Source: Alphaproteobacteria bacterium
GTDB lineage: Bacteria; Pseudomonadota; Alphaproteobacteria; Micropepsales; Micropepsaceae
DNA: 39,870 nt
Reading direction: 5' to 3'
Assembly: GCA_947473475.1 (NCBI GenBank)
Contig: CANJBZ010000037.1
Location: forward strand, 1 to 39,870
In this document: positions 702 to 39,870 of the stretch, piece after piece
Position numbering within the stretch: position 1 is the stretch's first letter
How the letters are laid out: each line of letters opens with the position of its first letter
The notes under the pieces: generated by a model
The model's database searches: none
Told to the model about the DNA's origin: nothing
What the model saw: only the letters and a program-made list of their open reading frames with translations
Translations under genes and position numbers: made by a program

Positions 702-812
702 CTCAGTCCTTGAGCTTGCGAGTTGGTAGCGTGCGCGATTTCGCGAGCGCACGCCATCGCATTTCAAGTCAGTCCAAAGCCGCAGTCGCGGCAGACAAAC
801 GACGGTATTCCT

Positions 813-2012: not shown

Positions 2013-2016
2013 GGCC

Positions 2017-10307: not shown

Positions 10308-13300
10308 CTAGGTTGCCGATATTGCCCCTACTTCGCGAACAGGGGCGCCCCTTCCCCGCCATCGCCGAATGTCTTCGCCGATGGCGAAAAGGCACGGGAT
10401 TAGAAACAGCACATAAACCGTCGAACTAATCATTCCGCCGACCGTAGGAGTGGCAATCGGCTTCATGATCTCCATGCCCGGACCGGTCGAAAGCATAACT
10501 GGCAAAAGTGAGAGAACCGTCGCCGCAACGGTCATCAGTTTGGGCCGCAACCGCAAAACGGAACCATCGACCACAGCATCCATGTAGGTTTCGGCCGGGC
10601 CTTTGCGCGCAAGCGCTTGCCGAATGAAAATGATCATAATGATGCCGGTCTGAATCGCCACTGCGAAGAGTGCGATGTACCCGATCACGACAGCGGTCGT
10701 CATGGAATAGCCAAGCAGCCATTGCAGGAAGACGCCGCCGACCAGCGCAAAGGGCACCGATGCCATGATCAAAAGACTATCGGCAACGGACCGAAATGCG
10801 AGCGAGAGCAGAACAAAGATGATCAGCAGTGTAACGGGAACAATAAGCTGCAATTGAGACCGAGCGCTGGCGGCATATTGATAATCACCTGTCCATTCGA
10901 GTGAATAGCCGGCAGGAAGCGCGAGCGCCTTGGCGAGATAGGGCTTTGCTTGTTCTACGTAGTCCGTCGCTGTGACATTCGGGTTGAGATAGACAAAAAC
11001 GTATCCCGCCAAAGCGCCATTGTCGTTGCGGATCATCTCCGGCATTTTTTTGACGGCTACGTCCGCGATCTCCCGCAGACTAATAGTGCCGCCGCCCGGC
11101 ACCACCATGGGTGTGTTGCGTACCTTATCGAGCGTATCGAGATATTCCGGCGAATATTGGACGCTCAGCGGTACGGGCAGGCTTCCGCGCTCTTTGATGG
11201 AAACGACATTGTCGCCGCCTATCGCGTAGCGCACGATCGGCATGGCTTCGTCGGCCGTAATGCCCGCTTGCGCTAAGCGAGCCGGATCGAACTCCACATC
11301 GATAAAATAACCTTCCGAAATGCGTTCGGCGATCACCGATTGGGTGCCGGCAAATGTTCTTAGGGCTGCTTCGGCCTTTTGCCCTAGTTCTTCTATGGTG
11401 GCGATATCAATACCTTTGATCTTAATGCCCACGGGCGTCTGAATGCCCGTATCCTGCATGACCACGCGCGCATTGATCGGCTGGACCCACATATTGACGT
11501 AACCCACGATCTTCATCGCCTTGTCCATTTCGGCGGTCAGCTTCGCTTTCGTCATTCCAGGCCGCCATTCCGATTCCGGTTTAAGCAGCACGGTGGCTTC
11601 GATCATCGTTACCGGCGCGGAGTCGGTCGCTGTGTCGGCGCGGCCAAGTTTTCCGAAGACGCTCGTTACTTCGGGAAAGCTTTTCAGCTTCTTGTCGATC
11701 TGCTGCAGAACCCAGCCGGCCTCGCGCGCAGGAACACCGGGCAGCGTCGTTGGCATGTACAGGATCGAGCCCTCCTCCAGCTGGGGCATGAAATCCTTTT
11801 TGAATCCCCCAATGAGAACAACCGCGACTGCCAAGGCGACGAGATTGGCGGCAAGAAATGCGTAACGAAAACGGACGACTGCGTTTACGGCCCGCCGATA
11901 CAGATTCACAAACGCGAGTTCGCGGTGGCCTTGCGGCTTTAACTTGCGGCCCTGGAAAACCCAAACGACGATGATGGGCAGAAGGAAAAGGGTGAGCAGA
12001 GTAGAAAATGCCATGGCGAACGTCTTGCTGAACGCCAGGGGATCGAACATGCGGCCTTCCTTTTCGCCGAGGAAGAAGACGGGAAGAAACGACGCAAGGA
12101 TGATGAGGAGGGAGAAGAGCAGCGGCCGCGCCACATTCGTGATGGAATGCACGATAATATCACGCCGTTGCGCCACGGATGCGTTCGGATGCGCGGACAA
12201 CTCTGCGGTACAGTTCTCTACGATCACAATGGTCGCGTCTACCATTTCTCCAATGGCGATGAAGAGACCTGCGAGCGAGAACAAATTGATCGTCTGGTGG
12301 AACAGAGACAGCGGCATCGCCGTGAACAGCACGCCCAAAAGCAAGACCGCAACGGGGGCGATGGCGGTTCGGGGATTGTGCAAGAACAGCGCCGTGATCA
12401 GGATGACAACGATCAATTCATAAATTAGCGTCGTTATAAAATGTTCGAGCGTCCCCCAGATCAGCGTCGAGCGGTTGTACGCTGGCACAATGTCGATGCC
12501 CATCGGCAGAGACGCTTTGACCTCACGAAGCTTTGCGTCGAGCGCCCCGGTGACTTCGAGGACGTTTTGCTTCTGCTCCATGACGACGATGCCTGCAACG
12601 ACCTCGCCGGCGCCGTTCAAATCCGCAATGCCGCGGCGTTGGTCATAACCAATCTGGATATAGCCAATATCCTTAAGAAGGACGGGTTTCCCATTGGGGC
12701 TCCGGCCCAGCACCATCTGTTCCAGGCTATTAATGTCGTTGTTGCTTACGACGCCACGAATTTGATAATCGCGGTTGGTGACTTCGATGGTCCTTCCACC
12801 GGCTTCTTGGAAGGAACTTTGTAGTGTTGTTACGAGCTGCCTGAGCGAAATGCCCGCTTCCGCCAGCAATGGTGGGAAAATTTTCAACTGATACTGCTTC
12901 TCCAAACCGCCAACAGAAGCCACTTCGGCGACTCCGGGCACTGTCTGTAGGGCAGGCTTGATCTGATTTTCATTCAGCAGGCGCAAATCGCGAGGATCGC
13001 GAGTCCCCTCCTTGTCGATAAGGGCGTACTCATAAATCCATCCCATGCTGCTTGCGTTGGGTCCGAGTGTAACAATCGCATCTGGTGGCAATTGCGGACG
13101 AATGGCGCTGATGCGGTCGGCAACAAGCTGACGAACAGCCGGGCGTTGCCCCTCGCTCTTTAGGATGACGTAAATGAAGGAATAGCCCATATGGGATGTG
13201 GCTCGAACCGCTTGAATCTCGGAAGCGCCGGCCAAAGACTTAATGATGGGTTCTGTAACTTCGGTCTCTAGCAGTTCGGGCGTGCGCGGCCATTTAGCGT

Positions 13301-13448
13301 AAACAATGATTTGCGGATCGGAAATGTCGGGAATGGCGTCAAGCGGCGCGGTGCGGATTGCGTAAGCACTTAAAAGGACGCCCGCTAAGACGAGCAGCCC
13401 TATAATCAGCCGGTATTGCAAGACCCGTGCAACAATGGTGGCGATCAT
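10308..13448 (-). CDS. CusA-type Cu(I)/Ag(I) efflux RND transporter
   Basis: The 1046-residue pump starts at the ATG at 13448 (MIATIVARVLQYRLIIGLLV); the frame opens earlier but only inside the preceding gene. The three CusA substrate methionines are all present with the E. coli spacing: Met565 (SILYMPTTLPG), Met615 (DSAPVTMIE) and Met664 (NARVVMQDTG), 50 and 49 residues apart. The nearby acidic residues Asp609 and Glu617 match CusA Asp617 and Glu625. TM4 has AIGEMVDATIVIVEN with the relay Asp404. These features support export of monovalent copper or silver, unlike the CzcA-like pump at 2017. The adaptor gene ends 10 bases upstream. No dedicated outer-membrane factor is encoded in this operon. 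Confidence 0.93.
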   Translation of the reverse strand: MIATIVARVLQYRLIIGLLVLAGVLLSAYAIRTAPLDAIPDISDPQIIVYAKWPRTPELLETEVTEPIIKSLAGASEIQAVRATSHMGYSFIYVILKSEGQRPAVRQLVADRISAIRPQLPPDAIVTLGPNASSMGWIYEYALIDKEGTRDPRDLRLLNENQIKPALQTVPGVAEVASVGGLEKQYQLKIFPPLLAEAGISLRQLVTTLQSSFQEAGGRTIEVTNRDYQIRGVVSNNDINSLEQMVLGRSPNGKPVLLKDIGYIQIGYDQRRGIADLNGAGEVVAGIVVMEQKQNVLEVTGALDAKLREVKASLPMGIDIVPAYNRSTLIWGTLEHFITTLIYELIVVILITALFLHNPRTAIAPVAVLLLGVLFTAMPLSLFHQTINLFSLAGLFIAIGEMVDATIVIVENCTAELSAHPNASVAQRRDIIVHSITNVARPLLFSLLIILASFLPVFFLGEKEGRMFDPLAFSKTFAMAFSTLLTLFLLPIIVVWVFQGRKLKPQGHRELAFVNLYRRAVNAVVRFRYAFLAANLVALAVAVVLIGGFKKDFMPQLEEGSILYMPTTLPGVPAREAGWVLQQIDKKLKSFPEVTSVFGKLGRADTATDSAPVTMIEATVLLKPESEWRPGMTKAKLTAEMDKAMKIVGYVNMWVQPINARVVMQDTGIQTPVGIKIKGIDIATIEELGQKAEAALRTFAGTQSVIAERISEGYFIDVEFDPARLAQAGITADEAMPIVRYAIGGDNVVSIKERGSLPVPLSVQYSPEYLDTLDKVRNTPMVVPGGGTISLREIADVAVKKMPEMIRNDNGALAGYVFVYLNPNVTATDYVEQAKPYLAKALALPAGYSLEWTGDYQYAASARSQLQLIVPVTLLIIFVLLSLAFRSVADSLLIMASVPFALVGGVFLQWLLGYSMTTAVVIGYIALFAVAIQTGIIMIIFIRQALARKGPAETYMDAVVDGSVLRLRPKLMTVAATVLSLLPVMLSTGPGMEIMKPIATPTVGGMISSTVYVLFLIPCLFAIGEDIRRWRGRGAPVREVGAISAT

Positions 13449-13458
13449 CGATTCCGGC

Positions 13459-14511
13459 TCATTGCACCGAGAACGAGAACTCGCCCTCAAGAGTCTTAGA
13501 TAACGCAACGGTCCGCCATTTCACTTTGTACGTCCCGGCGGGCAGAGGTGTTTTCGGCATCGCCATCAGCATAGTTGCGCCCATGGGCATGGCTTCACCC
13601 ACTTCAATCCGGCTGCCGTCAGCTTTTGTAACTTCGAAGCTCGATGTTTTAGGATCGACCGGCCGGTTGAACATAACATGGATCATGGGCAACGGCCCTT
13701 TGACCTTCGAATTAGCCCCGGGGTCTGTCATGATCAATGCGGGAGCAGTTCCCGAGTTTGCAGGCGGCGCATTTGCTGCCATGGCGCCGTGCTCCATGCC
13801 GGGCATGGAGCCGTGATCCATTCCCGGCATCGCCGCCATCATAGTTGCCGGCGATTTTAATTTGGTCTCTGCATCGACGAAGAAGCTGCCTATTGAGACG
13901 ATCTGATCGCCTTCTTTGAGCCCATCGGTGACTTGCGTGTAGAGCTCGCCTTGCAAGCCCGTCTTGATCACTTGGGGCGTGTACTGCCCGGGTTGCTTCT
14001 GAATATAGACAACGTGATCGTCGCCTTCTTCGATGATCGACACATTAGGTACGGACAGAAACGGCCCGCGCTCGACGACAATTTCCATCAGATAACGCGA
14101 GACGTCGTTCGATGTCTCAACGGGAAGCGTGCCTTCTATAGAAGCGCCGCCGGCTTGCGGTGCTATCTTGGTAATTCGCCCAAGATGTTTTCGCGTCCTG
14201 GTGTTAACTGTGTAGGCCTCAAAACGTTGGCCTAATTGCACTAATTCTGATTCCGGCGGACGCAGGAATGCCGTCAGCGTTTTGCGGCTCGCGTCCAAGC
14301 GGCCCGCAGTGCGAATCCAATTCTGGATAGGGCGTGTTGCGGCTTGTGTCAGCGTGAGTGTCAGTTCCGACGCTTGCGCATCGCTGACCGCCGTGCCCGC
14401 TGGCGGTGCTTTACGCGTAAAATCGCGCACACCTGCCGCCTGCGCGGAAGAAAGAAGGGTGAGGGGCACGAGCCAGATCAGATTACGCAAAACCGACCGC
14501 ATGCTGCTCAT
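13459..14511 (-). CDS. Hairpin-less RND adaptor fused to a CopC-like domain by a Met/His-rich linker
   Basis: The protein has 350 residues. A signal peptide covers about residues 1-25. Residues 50-220 resemble the beta-barrel and membrane-proximal parts of CusB-type adaptors (GQRFEAYTVNTRTRKHLGRI, then GLKEGDQIVSIGSFFVDAET). The lipoyl halves and the long alpha-hairpin that normally reaches the outer-membrane channel are missing or reduced. Residues 224-244 form a metal-binding-looking linker (MMAAMPGMDHGSMPGMEHGA). Residues 258-349 match the CopC fold: TDPGANSKV, IHVMFNRPVDP, MPKTPLPAGTYKVKWRTVAL. The His of the CopC Cu(II) site in the last part (TH in CopC) is absent here (SKTLEG). It probably hands copper to the CusA-type pump. 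ATG 14502 is an alternative start. Confidence 0.82.
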   Translation of the reverse strand: MSSMRSVLRNLIWLVPLTLLSSAQAAGVRDFTRKAPPAGTAVSDAQASELTLTLTQAATRPIQNWIRTAGRLDASRKTLTAFLRPPESELVQLGQRFEAYTVNTRTRKHLGRITKIAPQAGGASIEGTLPVETSNDVSRYLMEIVVERGPFLSVPNVSIIEEGDDHVVYIQKQPGQYTPQVIKTGLQGELYTQVTDGLKEGDQIVSIGSFFVDAETKLKSPATMMAAMPGMDHGSMPGMEHGAMAANAPPANSGTAPALIMTDPGANSKVKGPLPMIHVMFNRPVDPKTSSFEVTKADGSRIEVGEAMPMGATMLMAMPKTPLPAGTYKVKWRTVALSKTLEGEFSFSVQ

Positions 14512-14553
14512 AACTCAAAACATACCCCTCACGAGGTGCTAAACGTGATCTGC

Positions 14554-15819
14554 CTAGTGGCAGTAATTGTCTTTGCTATCCATGATGTGCGTTCCCCAGG
14601 GATAGAGGCCGACATTGGGCACGCGCTCCACAGCTTCCGTCCGGCCATCCACGATATAGACCGAATTGTCGGTTGCACTGGCGACGTAGAGCTTCTCGTC
14701 CGCAACATCGGTGGTTGACGTCTGAAGAAACAGGTTCTGACCAATTTTTAGACGACCGGCGGGCGTGAGCGTGTTCAAATTGTAGCTATAGAGAAAGCCT
14801 GTCGTCGAGCCGATGACCCAGGCCTTTCCGCCGGCAAAATTGATGCCGGTCATGTCCTTCGGGCCTTCCAGCGTCGATACAACCTCATTTTTCTGGGTAT
14901 CAATGATGGAGATGGTCTGGTCACCGTTGTTGGCGGTGATGAGATATTTGCCGTCATGGCTCATATAGCCGCGCCAAGGATCTCGTCCCACCCTAATGAC
15001 CTTGATAACCTTGTCCTCGCGCGTGTCGATGACGCCCACGACGCCAAGATCGCCATCCGCGGCATAAAGGTAACGTCCATCGGCGCTGGGCGTCGCGTTA
15101 AATATTCCGTGTATTTCGCTCAGGTACTTTGTCGGCTCAAGGGCCGAAATGCCTGGTGTCGGAGCGATCTGGATTCGCTTGATTACCTCATGGCGCGTCA
15201 CGTCGATGACGCTGACAAAATGAGCACCGTAATTGCCGACATAAGCTTTGGAGCCGTCCGGGGTGAAGGTGATATTCAGCGGTTCTTTCAGGCCTTCAAT
15301 CGTTTTGATCACGCTCAGCGACTGCATATCGATGACGCTGATGGAATCACCCTCTGGATTACCCTGATAATAATACCGGCCGTCGGGCGAGAACGATAAA
15401 TGCTCGGGGAAAAGCCCTACCGGAATGACCTTCACCAATTTCAGCGTATGCGCATCGATGATGTAGGCCTTGCTGGAGCGTTGACCGCCGGTAACAACGT
15501 AGCGACCGTCAGGCGACATCATTACCATGTGCGGATTGACGTTGTTGCCGAGGAACGTCTTTCCGACAATCTTCTTGGTCGAGATGTCCATGAACGCGAT
15601 TTCGTTGGAGTCGCGATTGACTATCATCACCACCTTGGTCGGGTCGGGGACCAGTATGCCTGGCCCGCTTTGCGGGGCCGGCATCGCCATGTTCGGCATG
15701 TTGGGCATATTCGGCATGTTTGGCATCGCCGACTGCGCAGCGAGGGAGCCAGACGAGCTGATCAGACCGGCTGTTCCAACCAGAATAGAGGCAATCGCTG
15801 CAAGGTTAAAAGTGCGCAT
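14554..15819 (-). CDS. Exported YVTN/YncE-type beta-propeller protein with Met-Pro-Asn repeats
   Basis: The 421-residue protein starts at the ATG at 15819, which has AAGGAG six bases upstream; the frame opens earlier at TTG 15825. The signal peptide ends near residue 28. Residues 32-46 are a methionine-rich run (MPNMPNMPNMPNMAM), a type of motif that binds Cu(I) in other periplasmic proteins. The rest is a seven-bladed-type propeller with YVTN-like repeats, for example SPDGRYVVTG, TPDGSKAYVGNYG and MSHDGKYLITANNGDQTISI. The protein ends in Cys-His. Propellers of this class are often periplasmic binding or scaffolding proteins without known catalysis. Its place between porin and adaptor suggests a role in periplasmic copper handling; the exact function is unknown. 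Confidence 0.85.
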   Translation of the reverse strand: MRTFNLAAIASILVGTAGLISSSGSLAAQSAMPNMPNMPNMPNMAMPAPQSGPGILVPDPTKVVMIVNRDSNEIAFMDISTKKIVGKTFLGNNVNPHMVMMSPDGRYVVTGGQRSSKAYIIDAHTLKLVKVIPVGLFPEHLSFSPDGRYYYQGNPEGDSISVIDMQSLSVIKTIEGLKEPLNITFTPDGSKAYVGNYGAHFVSVIDVTRHEVIKRIQIAPTPGISALEPTKYLSEIHGIFNATPSADGRYLYAADGDLGVVGVIDTREDKVIKVIRVGRDPWRGYMSHDGKYLITANNGDQTISIIDTQKNEVVSTLEGPKDMTGINFAGGKAWVIGSTTGFLYSYNLNTLTPAGRLKIGQNLFLQTSTTDVADEKLYVASATDNSVYIVDGRTEAVERVPNVGLYPWGTHIMDSKDNYCH

Positions 15820-15839
15820 CTTCAACTCCTTCGAGTTTG

Positions 15840-17360
15840 TCAGAACGTCACGCCCATCCGAAGACCGGGAATGAAAAAGTTAGAACGGATGCCCGACTCC
15901 ATCACGTATTGCAGCATCATTGACACTGCGAGGTGGTCCGTCAGGTGTAGATTATAGAAGCCTTCGACCAGTTTTTCATTGGGGGCGGTCAAGTCGCTCG
16001 GCCCTTGTACAACTTCGGTCTGGGCATAGCCGACTCCCCATCTGTCCAACGGATTTAATGCAAACGGAGCTTGGAAGCCGAACCCGCCGTCAAAGAAGTG
16101 CACCCGCGTTCCGCCAACATCGCCATTGCCATAGCGGCCAAAGATTGTGACTTCCGGCGTCAGATGCTGGTCGATGCTGATGCCCCAGCCAGTTCTGTCC
16201 TGCCCGGTGCTGTTATCCACGCGACCCCATAGGCGATAATGACCTTCACCCAGGCCGAAGGGGACGGCGATAACTTCGACTTCCGCCAGAGAGAAGATCG
16301 AGTCATTCAGATTGGTCGCGATAGGATTGGTGGGATCGGCTTCGCTTTGCTGCACGCCGATTTTAACATTGTAGAATGACTTCGGGTCCCAAACAGCCAC
16401 GGCGCCAAGGCCGTTATTGGCCAAACCAAGAACCTGATTGTTCACCAAGGCATCGCTAATAAATTGTGAGGTCTCGTCATTGGCAACCGCATTGCGGTCG
16501 AAGTAATTTGTCAGGTCGACTTGGCCGAGCGTAAGCCCCAATCTTTGCCCGAAAATTTCCGTGCGAATCCAGGCTTCCCGCATCTGCAGCCGATTGTTCG
16601 ATAGGCGGGCGCCCTGACTGTTGAGGAGCGTAAGCGCCGGAATTTCACCATTCGGCGTCGGTCCACCAATCGCGACAACGTCTGCAAAAAAGCTTGTATT
16701 CAAGGCAGCGGATTGCGCCAAAAAGGTAATGTCTGACTGTGTCACTCCGTAAATGTGGCCATCCGGGTCCTTAGGGAATAGTTTTGGACCGCGCGTTTGA
16801 AACGCGCCTTGAATTGTCGTGATGCTGCTGACGCCAAGCTGGATGCCATTCTCGGCCTCTTTGGCGAGGGCCTCTTCAATCTCATCCTCGACAACTTGGC
16901 GGCGGAAGACGCGCTCCCGCTGATATGTCTTCTGGGCGGTTAAACCCGGTCCCGGTTGATCGAACTCGTTACCGTTCTGATCGACATAAACGTCGACCTC
17001 TTTGACATTGATTTTTGGCGCGGACAGGACCGTGTTGGTTTCAAGGTCCGTTAGCCGCTGGTCGATCTGTTCCAAGCGATCGAGAATCGCTTGGGTGTCT
17101 AGATTCGCCGGCGGAGGAGACAACGGCACCCCCGGCATTCCAGAGCGACCTTCGATCTGGTTCAACCTTTGTTCGAACTGTTGCAGCCTTTGAAGAAGGA
17201 GCTGTCGGTCATCCATCGGCTGCCCGCCAGCCGCCTGGGCAACAATAACCTGCCGGTTTGCTTCTTGCGCAAGAGCGGCGCCGCAGCTAGCGGCGGTTAA
17301 TACGGCCGTTATGGCCGTACCCGCCAAAAAGCGCCATCTCCGATTAAGCACTTCTTTCAT
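15840..17360 (-). CDS. OprB-like outer-membrane porin with N-terminal coiled coil
   Basis: The protein has 506 residues from the ATG at 17360. A GTG three codons earlier (17369), next to GGGGAG, is an alternative start. The signal peptide runs to about residue 31 (GAALAQE). Two coiled-coil stretches follow: LLLQRLQQFEQRLNQIE and AILDRLEQIDQRLTDLE. From about residue 150 the sequence is a beta-barrel pattern, with REAWIRTEIFGQRLGLTLGQ and a C-terminal strand ending in GLRMGVTF, the terminal Phe being the usual BAM-recognition residue. The barrel resembles carbohydrate-selective OprB porins and other proteins with periplasmic trimerising coils. It is the first gene of the copper operon, 20 bases before the propeller gene. 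It might serve as the passive outer-membrane exit in place of a CusC channel; this is inference. Confidence 0.78.
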   Translation of the reverse strand: MKEVLNRRWRFLAGTAITAVLTAASCGAALAQEANRQVIVAQAAGGQPMDDRQLLLQRLQQFEQRLNQIEGRSGMPGVPLSPPPANLDTQAILDRLEQIDQRLTDLETNTVLSAPKINVKEVDVYVDQNGNEFDQPGPGLTAQKTYQRERVFRRQVVEDEIEEALAKEAENGIQLGVSSITTIQGAFQTRGPKLFPKDPDGHIYGVTQSDITFLAQSAALNTSFFADVVAIGGPTPNGEIPALTLLNSQGARLSNNRLQMREAWIRTEIFGQRLGLTLGQVDLTNYFDRNAVANDETSQFISDALVNNQVLGLANNGLGAVAVWDPKSFYNVKIGVQQSEADPTNPIATNLNDSIFSLAEVEVIAVPFGLGEGHYRLWGRVDNSTGQDRTGWGISIDQHLTPEVTIFGRYGNGDVGGTRVHFFDGGFGFQAPFALNPLDRWGVGYAQTEVVQGPSDLTAPNEKLVEGFYNLHLTDHLAVSMMLQYVMESGIRSNFFIPGLRMGVTF

Positions 17361-18423
17361 AACTGACACTTGCTCCCCTCGACCGTTGTATCCGCCCATC
17401 CCCACGAAGGCGGTCTCCTGCCGGTCTGTCCCACAGATTACGCGGCGGAAACACCGTTCCCTCACGGGCGAAGTAGTCGCCGTCCACTAGTATGGCGACG
17501 GAAGGGTGCCGAACAGGGGCGTTGGTCCGGGCGCCGTGCATCCGGCAGACGGCGATTTTTAGAAATCGGCCGAACACTGACGCGTCTGAGGGCCTTGGGA
17601 GTGTCCGTCTAAGATTTGCCGGTACAGATGCACCTTGTTGCTCGCGCGGGGGGCGACGCAATCAGGCTGTTCTCGCACGAAGCCTGCCTCCCCGGGGCAT
17701 AGGCAGCGGTGGGCGGTCTAGATCAGTCCGGAGCAGGGTAGGACCTCCGTCACCCGCCCAAGAACGGCGAAATGTGATCAATCGCATTGCCATCGCACCC
17801 GACGACCTCGTTTGCGTCGTCGACTTGGCAGATGACCGCCACTGATGCACACGCCTGTTGGCAATTGCGTTATCGCCTAAGCCTTGTCGTGACAGCGGAA
17901 TGGCGCGGCAGTTTGAATTCAAAACTGCCGCGCGCCGGTTTGGGAATCGGAGAAGAATGCATTGGGAATCAATGAACGCATGCGACAGGGTTGGGACAGG
18001 TAACCATTTGAAGATTAAGGGTTGTTCTGTTCCTGCCCGGTGGGCCGTTTGTGGCGACGCATACATTCCATTTCGTCAGTCCGACCTAGACGGACGCGCT
18101 GCAAATTCCCAACGCCTGCAATAATTGTCATAAGGATAAGGACACCAAATGGGCAATTTTAGCGCTGAAAACTTGGGATGACCGATCGCCATGTCGCGTC
18201 GCGCCGTAAGCCACCATGCGCCTCGCCACATGCGCCAGCCCCACTTTTACGAATCAAGCCTAGCAATTCATACGTCTTCGCGAAACGCGACTTATCGCCC
18301 GATAGTTTGAAGACACTGGAAACATACTCTGTGTAGGAGGTATCGCCTAACTAAAGCGTGAGAAGGTGACTTGTATTTCGGAAAGATGGCGCGTTCCGAG
18401 GCCCGCGCGTCACCAGCGAAAAT
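17361..18423. other. About 1 kb spacer between the copper operon and the prophage; no gene supported
   Basis: Several short open frames occur on both strands, but none has a Shine-Dalgarno plus a protein-like composition, and they overlap one another. The right part should contain the attachment-site junction, because the last phage gene ends at 18424. No tRNA, integrase or clear core duplication is visible. The left part should hold the promoter of the minus-strand copper operon, but I could not pick a convincing -35/-10 pair. A strong palindrome lies at 17903-17933. Confidence 0.6.
17903..17933. repeat. Perfect 12-bp inverted repeat in the spacer
   Basis: GCGCGGCAGTTT (17903-17914) and AAACTGCCGCGC (17922-17933) are exact reverse complements around a 7-base centre, GAATTCA. 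No T-tract follows on either strand, so it is not a typical intrinsic terminator. It could be an operator for a dimeric regulator, a REP-like hairpin or part of a phage attachment region. Confidence 0.7.
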
Positions 18424-33053: not shown

Positions 33054-33497
33054 TCAGAGGAGCGGGTTGCTCGTCCCGTAGGTGGCGACAATGGCGACGT
33101 CCGCCCATCTGGCGGTGCGCGCTCCTTCCGCCTCGATGTCGTCGGTCGCAGGCGCTTCGCATTCCAGGAAATCGCAGAGGCCGCCAAGCGTGCGGTCCGC
33201 CAGGATCGCGTTTCCGATTGCCATCAGCATCCTGTCGAGAGCTTCTTCGCGCGTGGCCCCGCCCGAGGTTTGGTAGGTCGCAACCTCAAGCGGAATCCGG
33301 TGGTCGTAGATGTAGAGAAGCGGAGACAGGATCACGTCCGGCTGTCCGCAATCGCCGTCCCTGACGATCACCATGCCGCCGGCCGGAATGCTTTGCGGCT
33401 TGTCCCGATTGCGCTTCACGTCGGCGCCGGGCATCGCGTCCTCGATCAACCTCTTCACCGCATCGAGAACCTGTTCGCGCTTGCTCGTCACGATCAC
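33054..33497 (-). CDS. Tail terminator-like protein (lambda U position)
   Basis: The 147-residue protein starts with SKREQVLDAVKRLIEDAMPG and has the alternating helix-strand pattern of gpU-type terminators (MVIVRDGDCGQPDVILSPLL, HRIPLEVATYQTSG, DRMLMAIGNAILADRTLGGL). These cap the tail tube and join it to the head. The ATG overlaps the stop of the gene at 33494 (ATGA). The call rests on size, pattern and position. Confidence 0.72.
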   Translation of the reverse strand: MIVTSKREQVLDAVKRLIEDAMPGADVKRNRDKPQSIPAGGMVIVRDGDCGQPDVILSPLLYIYDHRIPLEVATYQTSGGATREEALDRMLMAIGNAILADRTLGGLCDFLECEAPATDDIEAEGARTARWADVAIVATYGTSNPLL

Positions 33498-34144
33498 CTC
33501 ATGTTCTGCGTAAGAACGCCCGGGACGCGCTGCGCCCAGCGATCCGCCGGCCCGTCAATGTCGAGCCGCTTCGGCAGCTTGACCGAGGGGACGAGCACGA
33601 ACATCACGACATCGACGGCGCTGCGTCCCTGCTTCAATCGCCCCGCTGTCGCCGGACGGAAGCCGCGCGCGCTTTTTGAAGGGGTAGCCTCGATGAAGGC
33701 GATCAGGCGGCCGTTCCCGGCCTTCGCGAACTTCAAATCGGCGTTGAACGTCGTCTCCACTTCGAAGGGAGACATCTTCGATCCCCTGCTGCCGAAACCA
33801 CCACCGCGCCGACGTGCAGGAACATTGTCTGTCGGAATCGCCAGATAGCGCCTGCCATTGATGGGAACGATGGTAGCGCCCCGGTCAAACCCATCGACGA
33901 TGGCGGGCGCCCGAGACCAGACATAGGCGACCGCGTTGATGCTGAGATGCGTTTGCGGATAGCGCCTCCCGCGCCAGGTATTCGCTAGGCGCTGACCAAG
34001 GCCGCCCGCGACGACCTGATCGCGAAGCTCGGATTTGAGCCCAGCCGTGACCTCGTCCATGGTCGCTACAGCCGCGTGCGCGATGTCCTCCTCGCAGCCT
34101 TTCGTTAGAGAGGAAAAATGGGGCGCATCAAATCTGAGGCGCAT
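33494..34144 (-). CDS. DUF6441-like phage morphogenesis protein (lambda Z position)
   Basis: The protein has 216 residues. A helical N-terminus (CEEDIAHAAVATMDEVTAGL) is followed by a basic middle with NTWRGRRYPQTHLSINAVAY. Next come a strand pair around GRRYLAIPTDNVPARRRGGG and a closing PSVKLPKRLDIDGPADRWAQ. This organisation fits the DUF6441 family, found in prophages of alphaproteobacteria between connector and tail genes. It may be a minor head-tail joining protein. It is the first late gene after the cytochrome cassette, and its ATG lies about 16 bases after a remnant-like frame. Confidence 0.72.
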   Translation of the reverse strand: MRLRFDAPHFSSLTKGCEEDIAHAAVATMDEVTAGLKSELRDQVVAGGLGQRLANTWRGRRYPQTHLSINAVAYVWSRAPAIVDGFDRGATIVPINGRRYLAIPTDNVPARRRGGGFGSRGSKMSPFEVETTFNADLKFAKAGNGRLIAFIEATPSKSARGFRPATAGRLKQGRSAVDVVMFVLVPSVKLPKRLDIDGPADRWAQRVPGVLTQNMR

Positions 34145-34519
34145 TGCTCAGAATACCTATCAGGTTACATCCACGGTCACTTGCGCTAGCGGGCGCCCAG
34201 GCTGGTGGACGTCCACCGCCGCGCAAAGCGCGACGGTGTGGATGCTTGCCGCGAGCGACCGGAGCCTCGGTCCCTCAGCGTTATAACTGACGCCTCACGG
34301 TAGCAGAGACGCGGATATTTGCACCGGACTTAAGCACCAAATAAGCCTTTGATTCTGTTGCGACTAAATCGCGGTGCGAAATTCTTGCATTTTGCACAGA
34401 ATTTCGGCCATTGGCCGCTATGGCGACGACCAGTCGGAATTCGTCAACGAGACATAAGCGTAAGGGATTCCACCTAGGCCACTTCCGGCTTCGCCCCCGT
34501 CCCCTAGGCGTTCACGCCG
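34145..34519. other. Left flank of the cytochrome cassette; 45-codon remnant frame and hairpin-prone DNA
   Basis: A minus-strand frame between a stop at 34297 and the TGA at 34160-34162 reads YNAEGPRLRSLAASIHTVAL and then CAAVDVHQPGRPLAQVTVDV. It looks protein-like and phage-like in codon use but has no start. It could be the 3' end of a phage gene cut by the insertion. To its right the DNA becomes clearly AT-richer. The first copy of the 15-base repeat GGTGCGAAATTCTTG lies at 34373-34387, with GCATTTTGCAC as a partial pairing arm. No complete gene is supported. Confidence 0.5.
34373..34387 (+). repeat. 15-bp direct repeat flanking the cytochrome gene, left copy
   Basis: GGTGCGAAATTCTTG is identical to 35351-35365, 978 bases to the right. 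The left copy is followed by a less perfect pairing arm (CATTTTGCAC). The pair brackets the promoter and the whole cytochrome gene. Confidence 0.75.
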
Positions 34520-34561
34520 TTGATCCTAATCAACATCCCGACCTTGAAAATGACGAATATT
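34520..34561 (+). promoter_or_regulatory. FNR/FixK-type operator and promoter of the cytochrome gene
   Basis: TTGATCCTAATCAA (34520-34533) is a perfect TTGAT-N4-ATCAA site for FNR/FixK/Anr/Nnr-type regulators, extended to a 16-base palindrome by G and C. If its centre (34526.5) is at -41.5, the transcript would start near 34568. AATATT lies at 34556-34561, exactly where a -10 element is needed. The leader would be about 93 bases. This is the layout of a class II activated promoter, so induction under low oxygen or nitric oxide is expected. Confidence 0.82.
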
Positions 34562-34660
34562 GGGACAGCGATGACCGCGTCGCAGTGAGGCATTTTGTTC
34601 AGCGGCGCGTATATAGGGCGTTCATCAGAAATCCAAATACACTTCGATGGAGGAGCCAAA

Positions 34661-35179
34661 ATGAAAAATTCGTCTTTTTTGATACGTACCGCTGTCGCGA
34701 TGTTATCGGTGGCGACAGTCAGCGCGTTGAGCGCAATTGGATGGAGTGCCAATGCCGCGCAACAAGGCGCGGCTCAGACGCCGTTCCTACCCCTCTCCAT
34801 CAGCATCAATGCGCTCATGGTCGCCATGGTTGACGATGTTGCTCACGACATTTGGGAGGGCGGCAACAAAGGCGCTGCTCTGTCTGGTCGAGAGTGGCAG
34901 GTTATCGATGAGCACGCGCTTCAGTTACAAGCCGCGGCAACGCTGGTTTCGCTCGGTGGGACAGGACAGGCCGACCGAGGCTGGGTGACTTCGCCCGGGT
35001 GGCAGGATTGGGCGCGCAAATTACGAGAGTCGGGAGTGGCGGTAAAGCGCGCGGTCGACACCAAGAACCAGATGGCTCTGCGCAGCGCTGGCGATGCGCT
35101 CGTAGACGTTTGTGAGGGTTGTCATAAACAGTTCAAGCCCGATGTTCCGACGGAAGGCATCTTGCACGTACCGCATTGA
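34661..35179 (+). CDS. Exported class II c-type cytochrome (cytochrome c'-like), prophage moron
   Basis: The 172-residue protein starts at the ATG at 34661 with GGAGGAG close upstream; the frame opens earlier but without a ribosome site. The signal peptide covers about residues 1-33 and ends around SANA-AQQ. The mature protein is all-helical, with NALMVAMVDDVAHDIWEGGN in helix 1, and the haem-binding motif CEGCH is only about 16 residues from the C-terminus, as in the four-helix-bundle cytochromes c' and c556. In these proteins the fifth ligand is the CxxCH histidine, and some bind nitric oxide. It is the only plus-strand gene inside the prophage, sits between two virion genes and has its own operator. 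The exact family member is uncertain. Confidence 0.82.
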   Translation: MKNSSFLIRTAVAMLSVATVSALSAIGWSANAAQQGAAQTPFLPLSISINALMVAMVDDVAHDIWEGGNKGAALSGREWQVIDEHALQLQAAATLVSLGGTGQADRGWVTSPGWQDWARKLRESGVAVKRAVDTKNQMALRSAGDALVDVCEGCHKQFKPDVPTEGILHVPH

Positions 35180-35201
35180 TCCGGAACCCACCGAAGTCGG
35201 A

Positions 35202-35240
35202 TACCCTGAGCGGTGAGGACTACGCTCATCGCTCAGGGTA
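35202..35240 (+). terminator. Candidate terminator hairpin after the cytochrome gene
   Basis: TACCCTGAGCG (35202-35212) and CGCTCAGGGTA (35230-35240) are perfect 11-bp arms around 17 bases, starting 22 bases after the stop codon. There is no T-run behind it, so Rho-independent function is unproven. Confidence 0.4.
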
Positions 35241-35348
35241 CGAAGTGAGTTCGTTGGCGAGAACCATGATGTCCGAATTGGGGTCAATCTCGGTCCGTGG
35301 CGTTGTGGGAACTAACGAGAATGTACAAGGCTTTTCCGGCCGTTCTAG

Positions 35349-35378
35349 ATGGTGCGAAATTCTTGAATTTCGCACCAT
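35349..35378. repeat. Perfect 13-bp hairpin containing the right copy of the 15-bp repeat
   Basis: ATGGTGCGAAATT (35349-35361) pairs exactly with AATTTCGCACCAT (35366-35378) around CTTG. Bases 35351-35365 equal the left copy at 34373-34387. It marks the right side of the cassette. Confidence 0.8.
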
Positions 35379-35488
35379 AGCGAATGCTCCCTTTTGGCGA
35401 TCTATCGCTCTCGGGTGGCCGGATTGCTCCCCTGAGGGGTTACCGGCCCTACGGACGACTGGCCTGTGCGTGTTTGACTAAGCATCGC

Positions 35489-35803
35489 TCAGAGCTTTGC
35501 CGCTTCACAGGTCCAGACGAGGCCGGCGCTATCGAGCGTTGGCTCTGCCAGGATCTGAAACGCCACCCCACCGATAGTGGCGAGATCGCCCTCGGAGGGG
35601 TTGGCAATTTCCGCCGCCCGAACGTCGATCAGGGTCGTCGGCAGAAGCGCCCGGCTTCCACCGAAGTTCACGATTCTGTCGGGACATCTGCGGATCACGC
35701 GAACCGGAATGGGCGCGCCCACCCCGCCAGCCGCCCATGTGGCATCCAGGGCGAGTTCGGGATCGGCGAAGAGATCGGCGAGCGCGTCGGCGAAGAGGGT
35801 CAT
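35489..35803 (-). CDS. Head-tail connector protein (lambda FII-like position)
   Basis: The 104-residue protein begins MTLFADALADLFADPELALD. A GAPIPVRVIRRCPDRIVNFG segment leads to strands LLPTTLIDVRAAEIANPSEG and ends in LVWTCEAAKL. This is the length and the end (LVWT.EA) of small FII/gp6-like joining proteins downstream of lambda-type capsid genes. The start overlaps the capsid stop (TGATG). It is complete, so the cassette next to it did not cut this gene. Confidence 0.75.
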   Translation of the reverse strand: MTLFADALADLFADPELALDATWAAGGVGAPIPVRVIRRCPDRIVNFGGSRALLPTTLIDVRAAEIANPSEGDLATIGGVAFQILAEPTLDSAGLVWTCEAAKL

Positions 35804-36825
35804 CAGTTGCTGGAGAAGATGCGCACGGCGAGACGCGGGCGCTTGTTGACGGGCAGGATCGACGCTTCCGTCTTCACGTCAATGGCGCTTCCATCGAGAC
35901 GCGCGATCTGGCGCGCATAGATGGGAAGGCCGACGGTGTTGACGGTCTCGATGAGGTTGGCGGGCGCGCCGTAGGTGACGAACGTGTCGAGCGTGCCCAT
36001 GGGGAACGCGATACCTTCGCCGACGGGGATGAGGGTTTCGGTGGCGCCCGTCGAGAGGGTAACGGTCGCGTTGTATTCCTCGAACACGATGCCGGCGAAC
36101 GGAAAGCGCCGGCGGGTGTCCTCGCGCAGCGGCTGTGCGCCCGTCGAGGAGAAATATTTGTAGGCGTCCTCTACCCTGGCGTGACTGATGAGCTTGTCGA
36201 AGAAATCCGGGCTAACCATGGCGACGACGCCATTCATGGTTTCGCCTTTGAGTTCGACTTCGATCTTGCGCAGCACATCGCGGACCTTGGTCTGGATGCT
36301 CGTGGTGGACGTGCCGAGCACGAAATCAGTCGACTGCTGGGCAAGGCCGAACTCAGTGAAGTAATTGTACAGCGTCGATCCCGCGCCATCCTTGACGATG
36401 CCGCGCAGCGCGTTGACCTCCATGTATTCCCGCGTCTGGGCATGCTTCGCCCGCATGCGGGTGAGCTTCCTCTCCATGACGGTCGCCAGCGGGTCGGCCG
36501 CATCCCCCATCCCGAAGCCGCGCACGCCCTGGACGTCCTGGGGTGTGATCACATCGTCATGCGGAATCCAGGGGACAGTGAAGGAACGCATCGAGCGGGT
36601 GTCACGGTTGGCAACGGTCGCCGGGCCGCCGAGCGGCACGGTGGGCAAGAGATTCAGTACACCATCCGCCTGTTCGATGATGACACTTCGCTGGGTCACG
36701 CCTTCGAAGCGGAAAAAGCCCATCTGGCCCAGCCGCGTGTAGATGTTGGGCAGGATGTTAATGGCTTCGGTCATCTCGGCGAGCGAGTAACCGCCGGTGT
36801 CGAAGGGATTGATGATGGCAACCAT
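35803..36825 (-). CDS. Major capsid protein (lambda E family)
   Basis: The 340-residue protein starts at the ATG at 36825, eight bases after AAGGAG; the frame opens earlier over the terminator hairpin. The family pattern of lambda gpE is clear: INPFDTGGYSLAEMTEAINI, GFFRFEGVTQRSVIIEQADG, TVPWIPHDDVITPQDVQGVR, AKHAQTREYMEVNALRGIV, MVSPDFFDKLISHARVEDAY and FPFAGIVFEEYNATV. It forms the icosahedral shell with the decoration protein encoded just upstream. A terminator-like hairpin separates these two genes. Confidence 0.93.
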   Translation of the reverse strand: MVAIINPFDTGGYSLAEMTEAINILPNIYTRLGQMGFFRFEGVTQRSVIIEQADGVLNLLPTVPLGGPATVANRDTRSMRSFTVPWIPHDDVITPQDVQGVRGFGMGDAADPLATVMERKLTRMRAKHAQTREYMEVNALRGIVKDGAGSTLYNYFTEFGLAQQSTDFVLGTSTTSIQTKVRDVLRKIEVELKGETMNGVVAMVSPDFFDKLISHARVEDAYKYFSSTGAQPLREDTRRRFPFAGIVFEEYNATVTLSTGATETLIPVGEGIAFPMGTLDTFVTYGAPANLIETVNTVGLPIYARQIARLDGSAIDVKTEASILPVNKRPRLAVRIFSSN

Positions 36826-36840
36826 GAGGAGGGCTCCTTG

Positions 36841-36880
36841 AAAAAAGATCGGGCCCCGATGGCAAACCATCGGAGCCCGA
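36841..36880 (-). terminator. Intrinsic terminator between decoration and capsid genes
   Basis: On the minus strand CGGGCTCCGATGG pairs with CCATCGGGGCCCG (one G-U wobble) around TTTG, and ATCTTTTTT follows. This is a strong Rho-independent terminator. The capsid ribosome site follows directly, so it probably attenuates rather than stops late transcription, or is overridden by an antiterminator. Confidence 0.85.
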
Positions 36881-36908: not shown

Positions 36909-37298
36909 TTAGGCGGCGTCGCGCGGCACCAATCCGACAGCGGCAAGCTGGGTGTATTTGGTACCCTTCTTTGTCGCGTCGCTCACTGAAGCGTCAAAGA
37001 CGAGCGGGTCCTTCGAGACGATCACGGGCCCACGCACAACGACAAGGCCGGGCTTGTCCCCGCCTGTTGCATCCACCGCGCCAATCAGAACCGCGGTCGC
37101 GGTTTCCGCGCCGTCATCGCCCGCGACCAGGGCGTTGGGCGAGAGACGGTATTTGCCCGACGCCGTGATCTTGCCGAGCACCGAACCGAGCGCATAGTTC
37201 GTGCCGGATTTGAGCGTCACGGTTTCGCGGTTGTAGTTTCCGTTGAGTTCGAATTTGAGCAGATCGCCCAAGGTGGGCGACATGGTGAGTGTGGTCAC
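36909..37298 (-). CDS. Head decoration protein (lambda D family)
   Basis: The protein has 129 residues. AGGAG with eight-base spacing supports the GTG at 37298 as start; an ATG five codons later is the alternative. The family signature is visible: TLGDLLKFELNGNYNRETVT, GTNYALGSVLGKIT, AVLIGAVDATGGDKPGLVVV and GPVIVSKDPLVFD, ending KYTQLAAVGLVPRDAA. Trimers of this protein stabilise the expanded capsid. Order protease/scaffold, D, E is that of lambda. Confidence 0.93.
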   Translation of the reverse strand: MTTLTMSPTLGDLLKFELNGNYNRETVTLKSGTNYALGSVLGKITASGKYRLSPNALVAGDDGAETATAVLIGAVDATGGDKPGLVVVRGPVIVSKDPLVFDASVSDATKKGTKYTQLAAVGLVPRDAA

Positions 37299-37327: not shown

Positions 37328-37714
37328 TCAGTTCTTGCCGGCGGCAGCGCGCTCGCGCGCCCGCTGCACAATCGGGCTTGCACCAGCGGCCGGCTGCGGC
37401 GGCGCCGCCGCGACGATCGTCGAGGCTTCGGTTCGCGCAGCGAGTGTATCGAGCACCGAGCGCCGCAACGCTTCCGGCTTGATGCCCTTTTTCATCGCGT
37501 CGGCCGGATCGATGGCGACGCCGAGGCGACCGGCCTGTGCGGCAATGCCGGCGATTTCGGAATATTCGGCACGCAGCGTGTCCGCCTCGGAACGCGCCTC
37601 GGCGGGCGCGACAGGCGCCGGTGGCGCAGGGCTGGCCGATACGGGCGTTGGCGCCACTGCGGGCGCCGTGGGGGCTGCTTCCGGCGCGTCGGCCGGCAAT
37701 TCAGTCGTGGTCAT
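37328..37714 (-). CDS. Nested scaffold protein (Nu3-like), internal start of the protease gene
   Basis: The 128-residue product begins at Met298 of the protease frame (MTTTELPADAPEAAPTAPAV). AAGGAG lies eight bases before this ATG, a much better ribosome site than expected by chance inside a gene. The first 45 residues are Ala/Pro-rich, and the rest is helical (EADTLRAEYSEIAGIAAQAG, then ALRRSVLDTLAARTEAS). Lambda makes Nu3 from an internal start of gene C in the same way. It would fill the prohead and be cleaved by the protease. Confidence 0.8.
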   Translation of the reverse strand: MTTTELPADAPEAAPTAPAVAPTPVSASPAPPAPVAPAEARSEADTLRAEYSEIAGIAAQAGRLGVAIDPADAMKKGIKPEALRRSVLDTLAARTEASTIVAAAPPQPAAGASPIVQRARERAAAGKN

Positions 37715-38605
37715 GACAGGGCTCCTTGGGTGAGAGGCAAGAACGCGGGTGCTTCGCGCCGCCGCGGTGCGACTTTTTTCGATCTCCGTTCCGAGATCGG
37801 CGAGGGCGCTCGCAACGGTTCCAATGCGATCAGCCAAACCGGCAGCAACCGCACGCTGTCCGCGATAGATGGCAGCTTCCGTCAACCGCACGGTCTCGGG
37901 TGTGATGCCGCGATTGTTCGCAACGAGAGCGACGAACTCCGTGTACAGAGCATCGACATCGGCCTGGATTTCGGCGAGCGCCTGAGACGACAACGGCTGG
38001 TGTGGGTTGCCGTCGGTCTTCTTGGAGCCCGCCTGGATCAGCGTCCATTTCTGGCCAGCCATCGCATCGGCCGCGCTCTCGTCCACATGCGCGGCGACGA
38101 CACCGATGGAACCGGCTTCACCCGTCTGCGTCACATAGAGCCGGTCGGCCGTGCTCGCGATTGCGTAGCCGGCCGACAATGCGGACTCGCAGGCGACCGC
38201 CCACAGGGGTTTAACCGAGGCATCGCGCGCGGCACGAATTTGATCGACGAGATCGAACAGCCCGCCGACTTCGCCCCCGGGCGAGTCCATTTCGAGCAAG
38301 ACGGCGTTGACGGCCGGATCGGCGAACGCATTGTCGACGGCGAACGCCACGTCGGCGTAACTCATGATGCCGAACATCTCGGTCAGCCAATCGCCGCGCG
38401 ACAGCAGCGGACCAATGATCGGAACGACGGCGATCCCGCCGTCGGCGAGCGCGTATTCCAGTGAAGCCGTGGCAGCGATACCGGTGGTCGCGAATGCACC
38501 CGGCTTTGCATCGGGCAGCGGAGCAGCCAGAAGCGTTTCGAGCGCGCGCGGCGCGATCGCAAGCGGCCGGCCGGCGAACCGCGCCGCGATCGTGTTGATC
38601 GTCAT
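37328..38605 (-). CDS. Prohead S49-family protease with C-terminal scaffold (lambda C-like)
   Basis: The 425-residue protein starts at the ATG at 38605, seven bases after GAGG; the frame opens 25 codons earlier inside the portal gene. The N-terminal 270 residues are a ClpP/SppA-fold serine protease: VVPIIGPLLSRGDWLTEMFG, AVLLEMDSPGGEVGG, and ESALSAGYAIAS with the probable nucleophile Ser144. A Lys at 195/196 (GSKKTDG) serves as general base. The last third (from residue 298) is Ala/Pro-rich and then helical, as in scaffold domains. It matures the prohead and removes the scaffold. An in-frame start for the scaffold alone is at 37714. Confidence 0.93.
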   Translation of the reverse strand: MTINTIAARFAGRPLAIAPRALETLLAAPLPDAKPGAFATTGIAATASLEYALADGGIAVVPIIGPLLSRGDWLTEMFGIMSYADVAFAVDNAFADPAVNAVLLEMDSPGGEVGGLFDLVDQIRAARDASVKPLWAVACESALSAGYAIASTADRLYVTQTGEAGSIGVVAAHVDESAADAMAGQKWTLIQAGSKKTDGNPHQPLSSQALAEIQADVDALYTEFVALVANNRGITPETVRLTEAAIYRGQRAVAAGLADRIGTVASALADLGTEIEKSRTAAARSTRVLASHPRSPVMTTTELPADAPEAAPTAPAVAPTPVSASPAPPAPVAPAEARSEADTLRAEYSEIAGIAAQAGRLGVAIDPADAMKKGIKPEALRRSVLDTLAARTEASTIVAAAPPQPAAGASPIVQRARERAAAGKN

Positions 38606-38612
38606 TGATGCC

Positions 38613-39870
38613 TCAATTGGTGGCGTCGGCCGCCGGCGGGTCGCTTTGAATTGGCGCTGGCGCCATCGATGCCGTGGCAAAGTTTAGGCCCAGTGCCTTT
38701 TCGCGCGCCCTGTCGGCCGCGATCTCCGCATCGACCTGTTCGGCGTCATAGCCGCGTTCGGCGAGCGCCTGCGTGCGGCTCTTGAGGCCGGCATCAATCT
38801 GCTCGATCTCGGCGCGTGCGTCCTTCATGGGATCGACCCAATCCCATTTCGGCGGCAGCCAGGCACATGCGATGTATTCGCGCCGGCGGTTTTCGTAGTC
38901 CGGAATATCGAGCGCGCCAGATAACACCGCCACATCCATCCAGCGCGACCACACCCGCCGGCAGAACTGCCAGACCATGACGGCGTGCTGATAGGCTTCG
39001 ATGCGGCGGCGGAATTCGAGCAATGCGAGCCGCGAATTGGAGTAATTCGCCTTCAGCATGTCGTTGCTAAGATACGCGTAAGGAACACCCAGCGCCCCCG
39101 ACACCTGCAGCAGCGTCCGGTACTGGAACGGTTCGTAGGTTTGGCCGACATCGGCAGGGGCCGAGGTCTGCACTTCCTCGCCCGGCTCCAGCATGGTGAT
39201 CTGGCCGGGCTGCAGATCGAGCGTGCGCTCGCCGTCCTCGTCGCTCTCCGCCACGTCGAAGGCTTCGGCCGGGGCCGGTGTCGTGATGAAGAGCGCGTGC
39301 ATCGCCGCGACCTTCTTCCGGTCGAGTTCGGCGTCATCGTACTGGTCCAGAAGAAACAGCTTCACGATGCCGGGAGCAAATCGTGACACGCCACGAATCT
39401 GTCCGGCATCGACCGGATCGACGACGTGCACCACCTCCGTTGCCGGGACGCGAACGATCTCTCCTGCCAAGCCGGGATCGGTGATGTCGCCGGGATGGCG
39501 GCGCAGGAAATGATAGGCCACGCGCCGGCCAATGGCATCGAACTCTATTCCCTGCCTTATGACATTGCCTCCCGGCACGGTTTCGTTCCGGTTCAGCGGC
39601 AGCATCTCGGAGGGGATCATCTGCAGCTGCAGGGGGACAACGAGTCCGTCCACGGGCCTGCGCGGCCGGAAGCGAAAGAACACCTCCCCCGCGATGAACA
39701 CCTCGCGCGCCGCGCGACGCTCAAGGCCGTAGAAATCCGTGAATCCTTCCGCGTCGCTCTCGTCGGTCCAGTCGAGCCAGAGGCGCTGGACCTTGGCCTT
39801 CAGTTCCGCATCGGCAATCGACGAGGACGGCTTGATACCGCTCCCTGCAACATTGCCCGCCCAGCTCTCG
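38613..39870 (-). CDS. Portal protein (lambda B family), 5' end outside the window
   Basis: About 418 C-terminal residues are visible. The open frame runs to the right edge (AGNVAGSGIKPSSSIADAEL, then LWLDWTDESDAEGFTDFYGL), so the apparent internal GTG at 39701 is not the start. Family features are IPSEMLPLNRNETVPGGNVI, QYRTLLQVSGALGVPYAYLS, NDMLKANYSNSRLALLEFRR and WMDVAVLSGALDIPDY. The portal is the DNA entry ring of the capsid. The terminase genes should lie just upstream (to the right, outside the window). The stop lies 7 bases before the protease start. Confidence 0.92.
   Translation of the reverse strand, partial: ESWAGNVAGSGIKPSSSIADAELKAKVQRLWLDWTDESDAEGFTDFYGLERRAAREVFIAGEVFFRFRPRRPVDGLVVPLQLQMIPSEMLPLNRNETVPGGNVIRQGIEFDAIGRRVAYHFLRRHPGDITDPGLAGEIVRVPATEVVHVVDPVDAGQIRGVSRFAPGIVKLFLLDQYDDAELDRKKVAAMHALFITTPAPAEAFDVAESDEDGERTLDLQPGQITMLEPGEEVQTSAPADVGQTYEPFQYRTLLQVSGALGVPYAYLSNDMLKANYSNSRLALLEFRRRIEAYQHAVMVWQFCRRVWSRWMDVAVLSGALDIPDYENRRREYIACAWLPPKWDWVDPMKDARAEIEQIDAGLKSRTQALAERGYDAEQVDAEIAADRAREKALGLNFATASMAPAPIQSDPPAADATN

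Follow-up and report, generated by a model that had tools for sequence, protein, structure and literature searches.

A 1,344-bp cassette, carrying a gene for a predicted exported c-type cytochrome behind an oxygen-control operator, is inserted in reverse between two virion genes of a prophage. The best explanation for this arrangement, which we regard as probable rather than assured, is a host-derived electron-carrier moron, controlled by FixK and lodged in a cargo slot of a temperate lambda-type phage. Morons are known as a system; new here are the gene that is carried and the switch placed before it.

The DNA analysed here (39,870 nucleotides, hereafter the window) spans one whole contig of a draft assembly that totals 3.87 Mb in 66 contigs. 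The first 17.5 kb or so of the window belong to the host and contain two RND efflux pump genes as well as OprB/CopC genes, and the stretch from about 19.5 to 39.9 kb is a lambda-type prophage late region, with every phage gene on the minus strand. The genes for the portal, S49 protease, decoration protein D, capsid protein E, attachment protein and DUF6441 protein are followed in order by those for the tail terminator, minor tail protein, tape measure, tail fibre and endolysin. The contig end cuts the portal gene, and the prophage is visible here as its late region alone. No close relative was found in the phage collection, where the nearest capsid DNA is that of Acidithiobacillus phage AcaML1 (66%). 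On the host side, RND efflux gene sets with CopC/OprB genes lie at 723-5199 and 10308-17465 and adjoin the prophage, this end of which is probably flanked by a metal-resistance region. Elsewhere in the host chromosome, a 378-bp stretch of DNA (G000:C13:78765-79142; L193:8765-9142) is 91.5% identical to the DUF6441 gene. It lies in frame within a 713-aa chimeric ORF with, by eye, an HsdR-like start and a glycosyltransferase-like end, and this ORF is either a recombination relic or an assembly chimera.

Related phage and prophage loci were gathered with the capsid and DUF6441 proteins, yielding 128 distinct loci (the window excluded). The attachment and DUF6441 genes abut in 118 of them, with a gap of -38 to 42 nt, compared with 1,344 bp here, and the cassette is therefore an insertion. 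This bears out the original prediction of a gene inserted in reverse between two normally contiguous virion genes, the cytochrome gene being on the plus strand and its neighbours on the minus strand. Comparison of the same site in related prophages, which had been proposed as a check, thus found 118 of the 128 loci without an insert and the cytochrome in none of them. In the remaining ten loci, the gap measures 0.4 to 1.9 kb; it is filled by small same-strand genes in six and holds opposite-strand genes in four (L032, L084, L185, and L135). In L032, the opposite-strand cargo is an uncharacterised 273-aa protein and in L084 an uncharacterised 302-aa protein; L185 has an ankyrin protein that matches PADLOC weakly, and L135 encodes a trypsin/PDZ protease together with a LuxR-type regulator. 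Slot segments of L032, L084, and L185 are clearly below their surroundings in G+C. Because this place is thus occupied in four other phage lineages, each time by different opposite-strand genes, it is a moron slot, whose cargo would be independently transcribed.

The composition of the cassette is host-like and unlike that of the phage. Its G+C content is 56.5%, close to that of the host DNA in the window (57.4%), whereas the phage DNA on both sides reaches 63.5-64.1%, and even the phage stretch of equal length (1,344 bp) with the lowest G+C, at 60.6%, stands above it. Similarly, the GC3 of the cytochrome gene (0.63) falls within the range of host genes (0.62-0.66) and below that of phage genes (0.67-0.83). 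The cassette had been described as more AT-rich than the phage genes around it and as a moron; the first description was correct, and the second agrees with both this composition and the absence of the cassette from most related loci.

Table 1. Positions of the features discussed (window coordinates unless a locus is named)
Feature	Position	Strand	Remarks
Tail terminator	33054..33497	-	phrog_4204
DUF6441 virion gene	33494..34144	-	PF20039, E 1.5e-25; phrog_6367
Inserted cassette, 1,344 bp	34145..35488	.	Absent from most related loci; lower G+C
Left repeat copy, 25-nt imperfect palindrome	34373..34397	+	
FNR/FixK box TTGATCCTAATCAA (predicted operator)	34520..34533	+	Exact TTGATN4ATCAA
-10-like AATATT	34556..34561	+	22 nt after box; predicted +1 at 34568
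Shine-Dalgarno-like GGAGGAG	34649..34655	+	Read from sequence
Class II c-type cytochrome gene, 172 aa (predicted)	34661..35179	+	ORF, signal peptide, haem motif
16-bp stem-loop, candidate 3' end	35202..35240	+	22 nt past cytochrome stop codon; z -4.5
Right repeat copy, perfect palindrome of 14-nt arms	35349..35378	+	Fold z -5.2
Head-tail attachment protein (Phage_attach)	35489..35803	-	PF05354, E 5e-22
Major capsid protein E	35803..36870	-	PF03864, E 5e-108
Head decoration protein D	36909..37298	-	PF02924
Head maturation protease (S49)	37328..38680	-	
Portal	38613..39869	-	PF05136; frame open to contig end
Opposite-strand slot genes in other loci	L032:568-1389; L084:3887-4795; L185:7356-8564; L135:7412-8988		

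The box upstream of the cytochrome gene is the sole match to TTGATN4ATCAA with at most one mismatch in the whole window. Its centre lies at -41.5 relative to the predicted (unmapped) start, so that the perfect site and its distance from AATATT were correctly read at the outset. We consider the box a genuine FNR/FixK-type operator in kind, as predicted from its sequence. A sigma-70 scan returned no promoter match for the cassette, which is expected of an activator-dependent promoter without a -35 element. A terminator scan of the cassette detected no T-run terminator; the stem-loop following the cytochrome gene has no T run, and termination at the stem-loops of the cassette thus stays putative. 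An Rfam search of the cassette gave nothing above the cut-offs.

The host genome contains 16 perfect TTGATN4ATCAA sites in 3.87 Mb (about one per 240 kb), while the reversed control sequence gives none. At this density, the probability that a box lies by chance in the 300 bp before any one gene is near 0.1%. At least three of the 16 boxes stand before cytochrome genes. Boxes are found directly upstream of two class I cytochrome c genes, a UspA gene, and a gene for a FixL-type PAS histidine kinase, and one of the cytochrome c promoters has the same 22-nt spacing between the box and its -10 element (CATATT). The host also encodes two FixK-like CRP/FNR proteins (on contigs C26 and C48) with the recognition helix ETVCR, in neither of which was an N-terminal FNR cysteine cluster seen. 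Thus, of the FNR/FixK control originally proposed, the operator holds in kind, and the regulators found in the host are of the FixK type. The C26 regulator gene is located about 1 kb from a FixL-like gene. In this region (G000:C26, ~5.9-8.3 kb; L024, L253), the FixK-like regulator, the FixL-like PAS kinase and a class I cytochrome c are grouped around a perfect box, in what appears from the sequence to be a compact oxygen-control locus. The cassette promoter resembles those of the Bradyrhizobium FixK2 regulon, in which a TTGA-N6-TCAA box lies about 40 bp upstream of the start (PMC5582078, PMC9104804), at 40.5 bp from mapped start sites (PMC5582078); unlike them, the box is here located on a prophage, and the start is predicted from sequence.

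The cytochrome family is scarce, with representatives in 6 of 385 sampled genomes of the class, a count that includes the genome of the window. An orthologue on the chromosome of a member of a different family in this class (genome G407; 41-42% identity, E 6e-42) passes the Pfam Cytochrom_C_2 model with 28.9 bits and adjoins a molybdenum hydroxylase gene. It is preceded by a perfect box, TTGATTTGGATCAAcatcc, compared with TTGATCCTAATCAAcatcc in the cassette. The longer segments, TTGATTTGGATCAACATCC in G407 and TTGATCCTAATCAACATCC in the cassette, agree in both half-sites and in five flanking bases on the 3' side. The gene and its operator were therefore probably captured together, and the operator would probably predate its capture by the phage. 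The box is absent upstream of the closest homologue (genome G001, same genus; 53% identity), which adjoins a UspA-like gene, so that the comparison of homologues for the operator gave a mixed outcome, with a perfect box at the orthologue with 42% identity and none at the homologue with 53%. No homologue of the cytochrome was detected in 50,697 phage records, nor any true one in IMG/VR by a single-protein scan. The only IMG/VR match (L008) proved false, as it corresponds to an unrelated frame (DUF5131-like, by eye) sharing GWQDWARKLRD. The cassette is the single occurrence of this cytochrome found in a phage.

The cassette protein carries a Sec signal peptide (approximately residues 1-33) and a CEGCH haem motif at residues 151-155 of 172 (codons 35111-35125), as had been noticed from the sequence at first. 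On the basis of profile and fold searches, it is predicted to be a Sec-exported monohaem class II cytochrome c. Profile matches in the PDB are cytochromes c', and the protein scores 22.6 bits with Pfam Cytochrom_C_2 (PF01322), under the gathering score of 26.5; the initial label "cytochrome c'-like" thus holds for the class II family, with a score below the Pfam cut-off. Like cytochromes c' and c556 (PF01322), it combines CxxCH near the C-terminus, a predicted four-helix bundle, and a signal peptide; unlike them, it has an invariant Met in the first helix and a C-terminal KPxxPTEGIxHxP tail. The model (pLDDT 63, two-sequence depth) is a four-helix bundle with helices at residues 49-68, 76-98, 114-133, and 137-158. 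It matches cytochromes c' and NaxLS (Kusta0087/Kusta0088) of Kuenenia, the best match being to the NaxLS chains (Z 15.9, 1.8 A over 111 residues), although identity is about 10% and NaxLS is a heterodimer.

The end points of the full-length alignment to NaxLS give an offset of 21, which places Met53 (codon 34817-34819) on NaxLS residue 32, the position mutated by the depositors of those entries (C32M/C32G). We take Cys32 of NaxLS to be the distal haem ligand of that complex. Met53, Trp65, Trp79, and CxxCH are invariant in eight homologues. A Met at the distal haem-ligand position, as suggested by the sequences and the model, makes an electron carrier of the His/Met c556 type more likely than an open (His/open) cytochrome c', which is also the outcome, at pLDDT 63, of the structure prediction that had been proposed as a check. 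Given the low depth of the model, this assignment of the ligand draws on conservation and a single structural register. With a six-coordinate His/Met haem, like that of c556, the protein would be an electron carrier.

Two copies of a 25-nt repeat, GGTGCGAAATTCTTGAATTTYGCAC, bracket the prophage cytochrome gene (34373 and 35349). The same repeat brackets an HNH endonuclease gene located between flagellar genes in the host (G000:C8:60961 and 62052; L220), with a weaker third copy on this contig at 64863, and its orientation relative to the bracketed gene is the same at both sites. At up to three mismatches, the whole genome contains four copies, and the repeat was not found in 6 other genomes of the genus or in 384 of the class. 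With two instances at hand, the repeat may be intergenic sequence common to both sites, or it may mark a mobile cassette. There is a slim chance that it marks the ends of an undescribed mobile single-gene cassette and that the cytochrome entered the phage as such a unit. Other readings of the palindromes were set aside. A Xer/dif-like reading (11+6+11 nt layout) was dropped, as there are no CATAA/TTATG cores, and an ordinary dispersed intergenic repeat was rejected, given that 390 kb of host DNA contain only the C8 copies and the genome only four. Finally, palindrome matches in plasmids (Lichenihabitans, Acidiphilium, and Acinetobacter) have E values of 0.1 to 5 and occur as single copies, with no gene bracketed.

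The insertion, its orientation and composition, the operator here and at the orthologue, the haem motif, Met53, and the FixK- and FixL-like genes of the host are read from the sequence, and from them we infer the following course of events. A bacterial transcription unit, consisting of a FixK-type operator, a promoter, an exported class II cytochrome, and a 3' stem-loop, would have been captured in reverse at the slot. In the lysogen, the late operon would be silent, and falling oxygen would switch on the host FixL/FixK cascade. FixK would then bind the box at -41.5, and the cytochrome would be transcribed independently of the late operon. After export and attachment of one haem c at CEGCH, ligated by His and Met, the protein could act as a low-mass periplasmic electron carrier supplementing low-oxygen electron transfer in the host, to the benefit of lysogen and phage. 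It might take electrons from a periplasmic dehydrogenase or hand them to a terminal oxidase, with which the molybdenum hydroxylase neighbour in G407 is consistent. In the lytic cycle, transcripts of the late genes would run through the cassette in the antisense direction.

The original prediction also envisaged an NO-binding cytochrome, and a functional open-site cytochrome c' could indeed bind NO and protect the lysogen from nitrosative stress. The only relevant Pfam model is that of cytochrome c', the PDB profile matches are of the same kind, and NaxLS, to which the fold is most similar, has been described as a complex that binds NO (PMC11897245). However, the distal Met is invariant in all eight homologues, NaxLS has at this position a Cys that its depositors mutated, and the chromosomal orthologue adjoins a molybdenum hydroxylase gene, not NO genes. 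With this invariant Met, and with a best structural match that is not a classical cytochrome c', the open-site claim is not supported and we consider this alternative unlikely, although NO binding by displacement of Met53 is possible. The inducing signal is probably low oxygen through FixL/FixK, and nothing specific to NO was found.

A lesser but appreciable chance is that the cassette is a passive passenger, i.e., host DNA brought into the slot after lysogeny by illegitimate recombination, possibly involving the palindromic repeats, with no gain to either partner. Its host-like composition, its single occurrence with no phage homologue, the repeats in common with the chromosomal HNH region, and the DUF6441 fragment in the host chromosome are all compatible with such an origin. 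Yet the insert falls precisely at the boundary of two intact genes, both frames being left open, it brings its own predicted promoter, Shine-Dalgarno sequence, and 3' stem-loop, and the slot is filled by other cargo in other phages. That the cytochrome serves the phage itself, in lytic growth or in the virion, is suggested by its location inside the late region; but this is very improbable, as late transcription would produce only antisense RNA from the opposite-strand gene, which moreover encodes a Sec signal peptide and lies behind a promoter of the host type. We give scarcely any credence to an assembly artefact joining a chromosomal cytochrome region to phage contigs. The assembly is a draft of 66 contigs, and there is a chimeric frame elsewhere with part of DUF6441 in it, but both joins fall exactly at the gene boundaries of a slot filled in other phages and the cassette sequence occurs once in the genome.

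Most characterised morons are toxins, surface modifiers or defence genes. The cassette, read as a host-derived moron, shares with known ones its own (predicted) promoter, opposite strand, different composition, absence from most relatives, and place among replaceable cargo. It differs from them in that its cargo is a predicted periplasmic c-type cytochrome and its switch a host FixK-type oxygen operator. No prophage cytochrome under an oxygen regulator was found in the literature covered, which is incomplete. Phage-encoded SoxD, involved in thiosulfate oxidation, and electron-transfer auxiliary metabolic genes provide a parallel in that a virus carries a host c-type cytochrome-related protein (PMC8190135). 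Both reported SoxD copies lack one or both haem motifs (PMC8190135), whereas the cassette protein has an intact motif, is a predicted class II carrier, and has its own predicted redox-regulated promoter.

If the moron reading is correct, lysogeny can directly alter low-oxygen respiration, through a prophage gene governed by the metabolic state of the host instead of phage regulators; a dormant virus may, as its sequence suggests, supply its host with a respiratory protein. The late-gene slot between the head-tail attachment and DUF6441 genes is now defined, and further cargo can be looked for there. In other prophages, this moron hotspot may hold defence genes.
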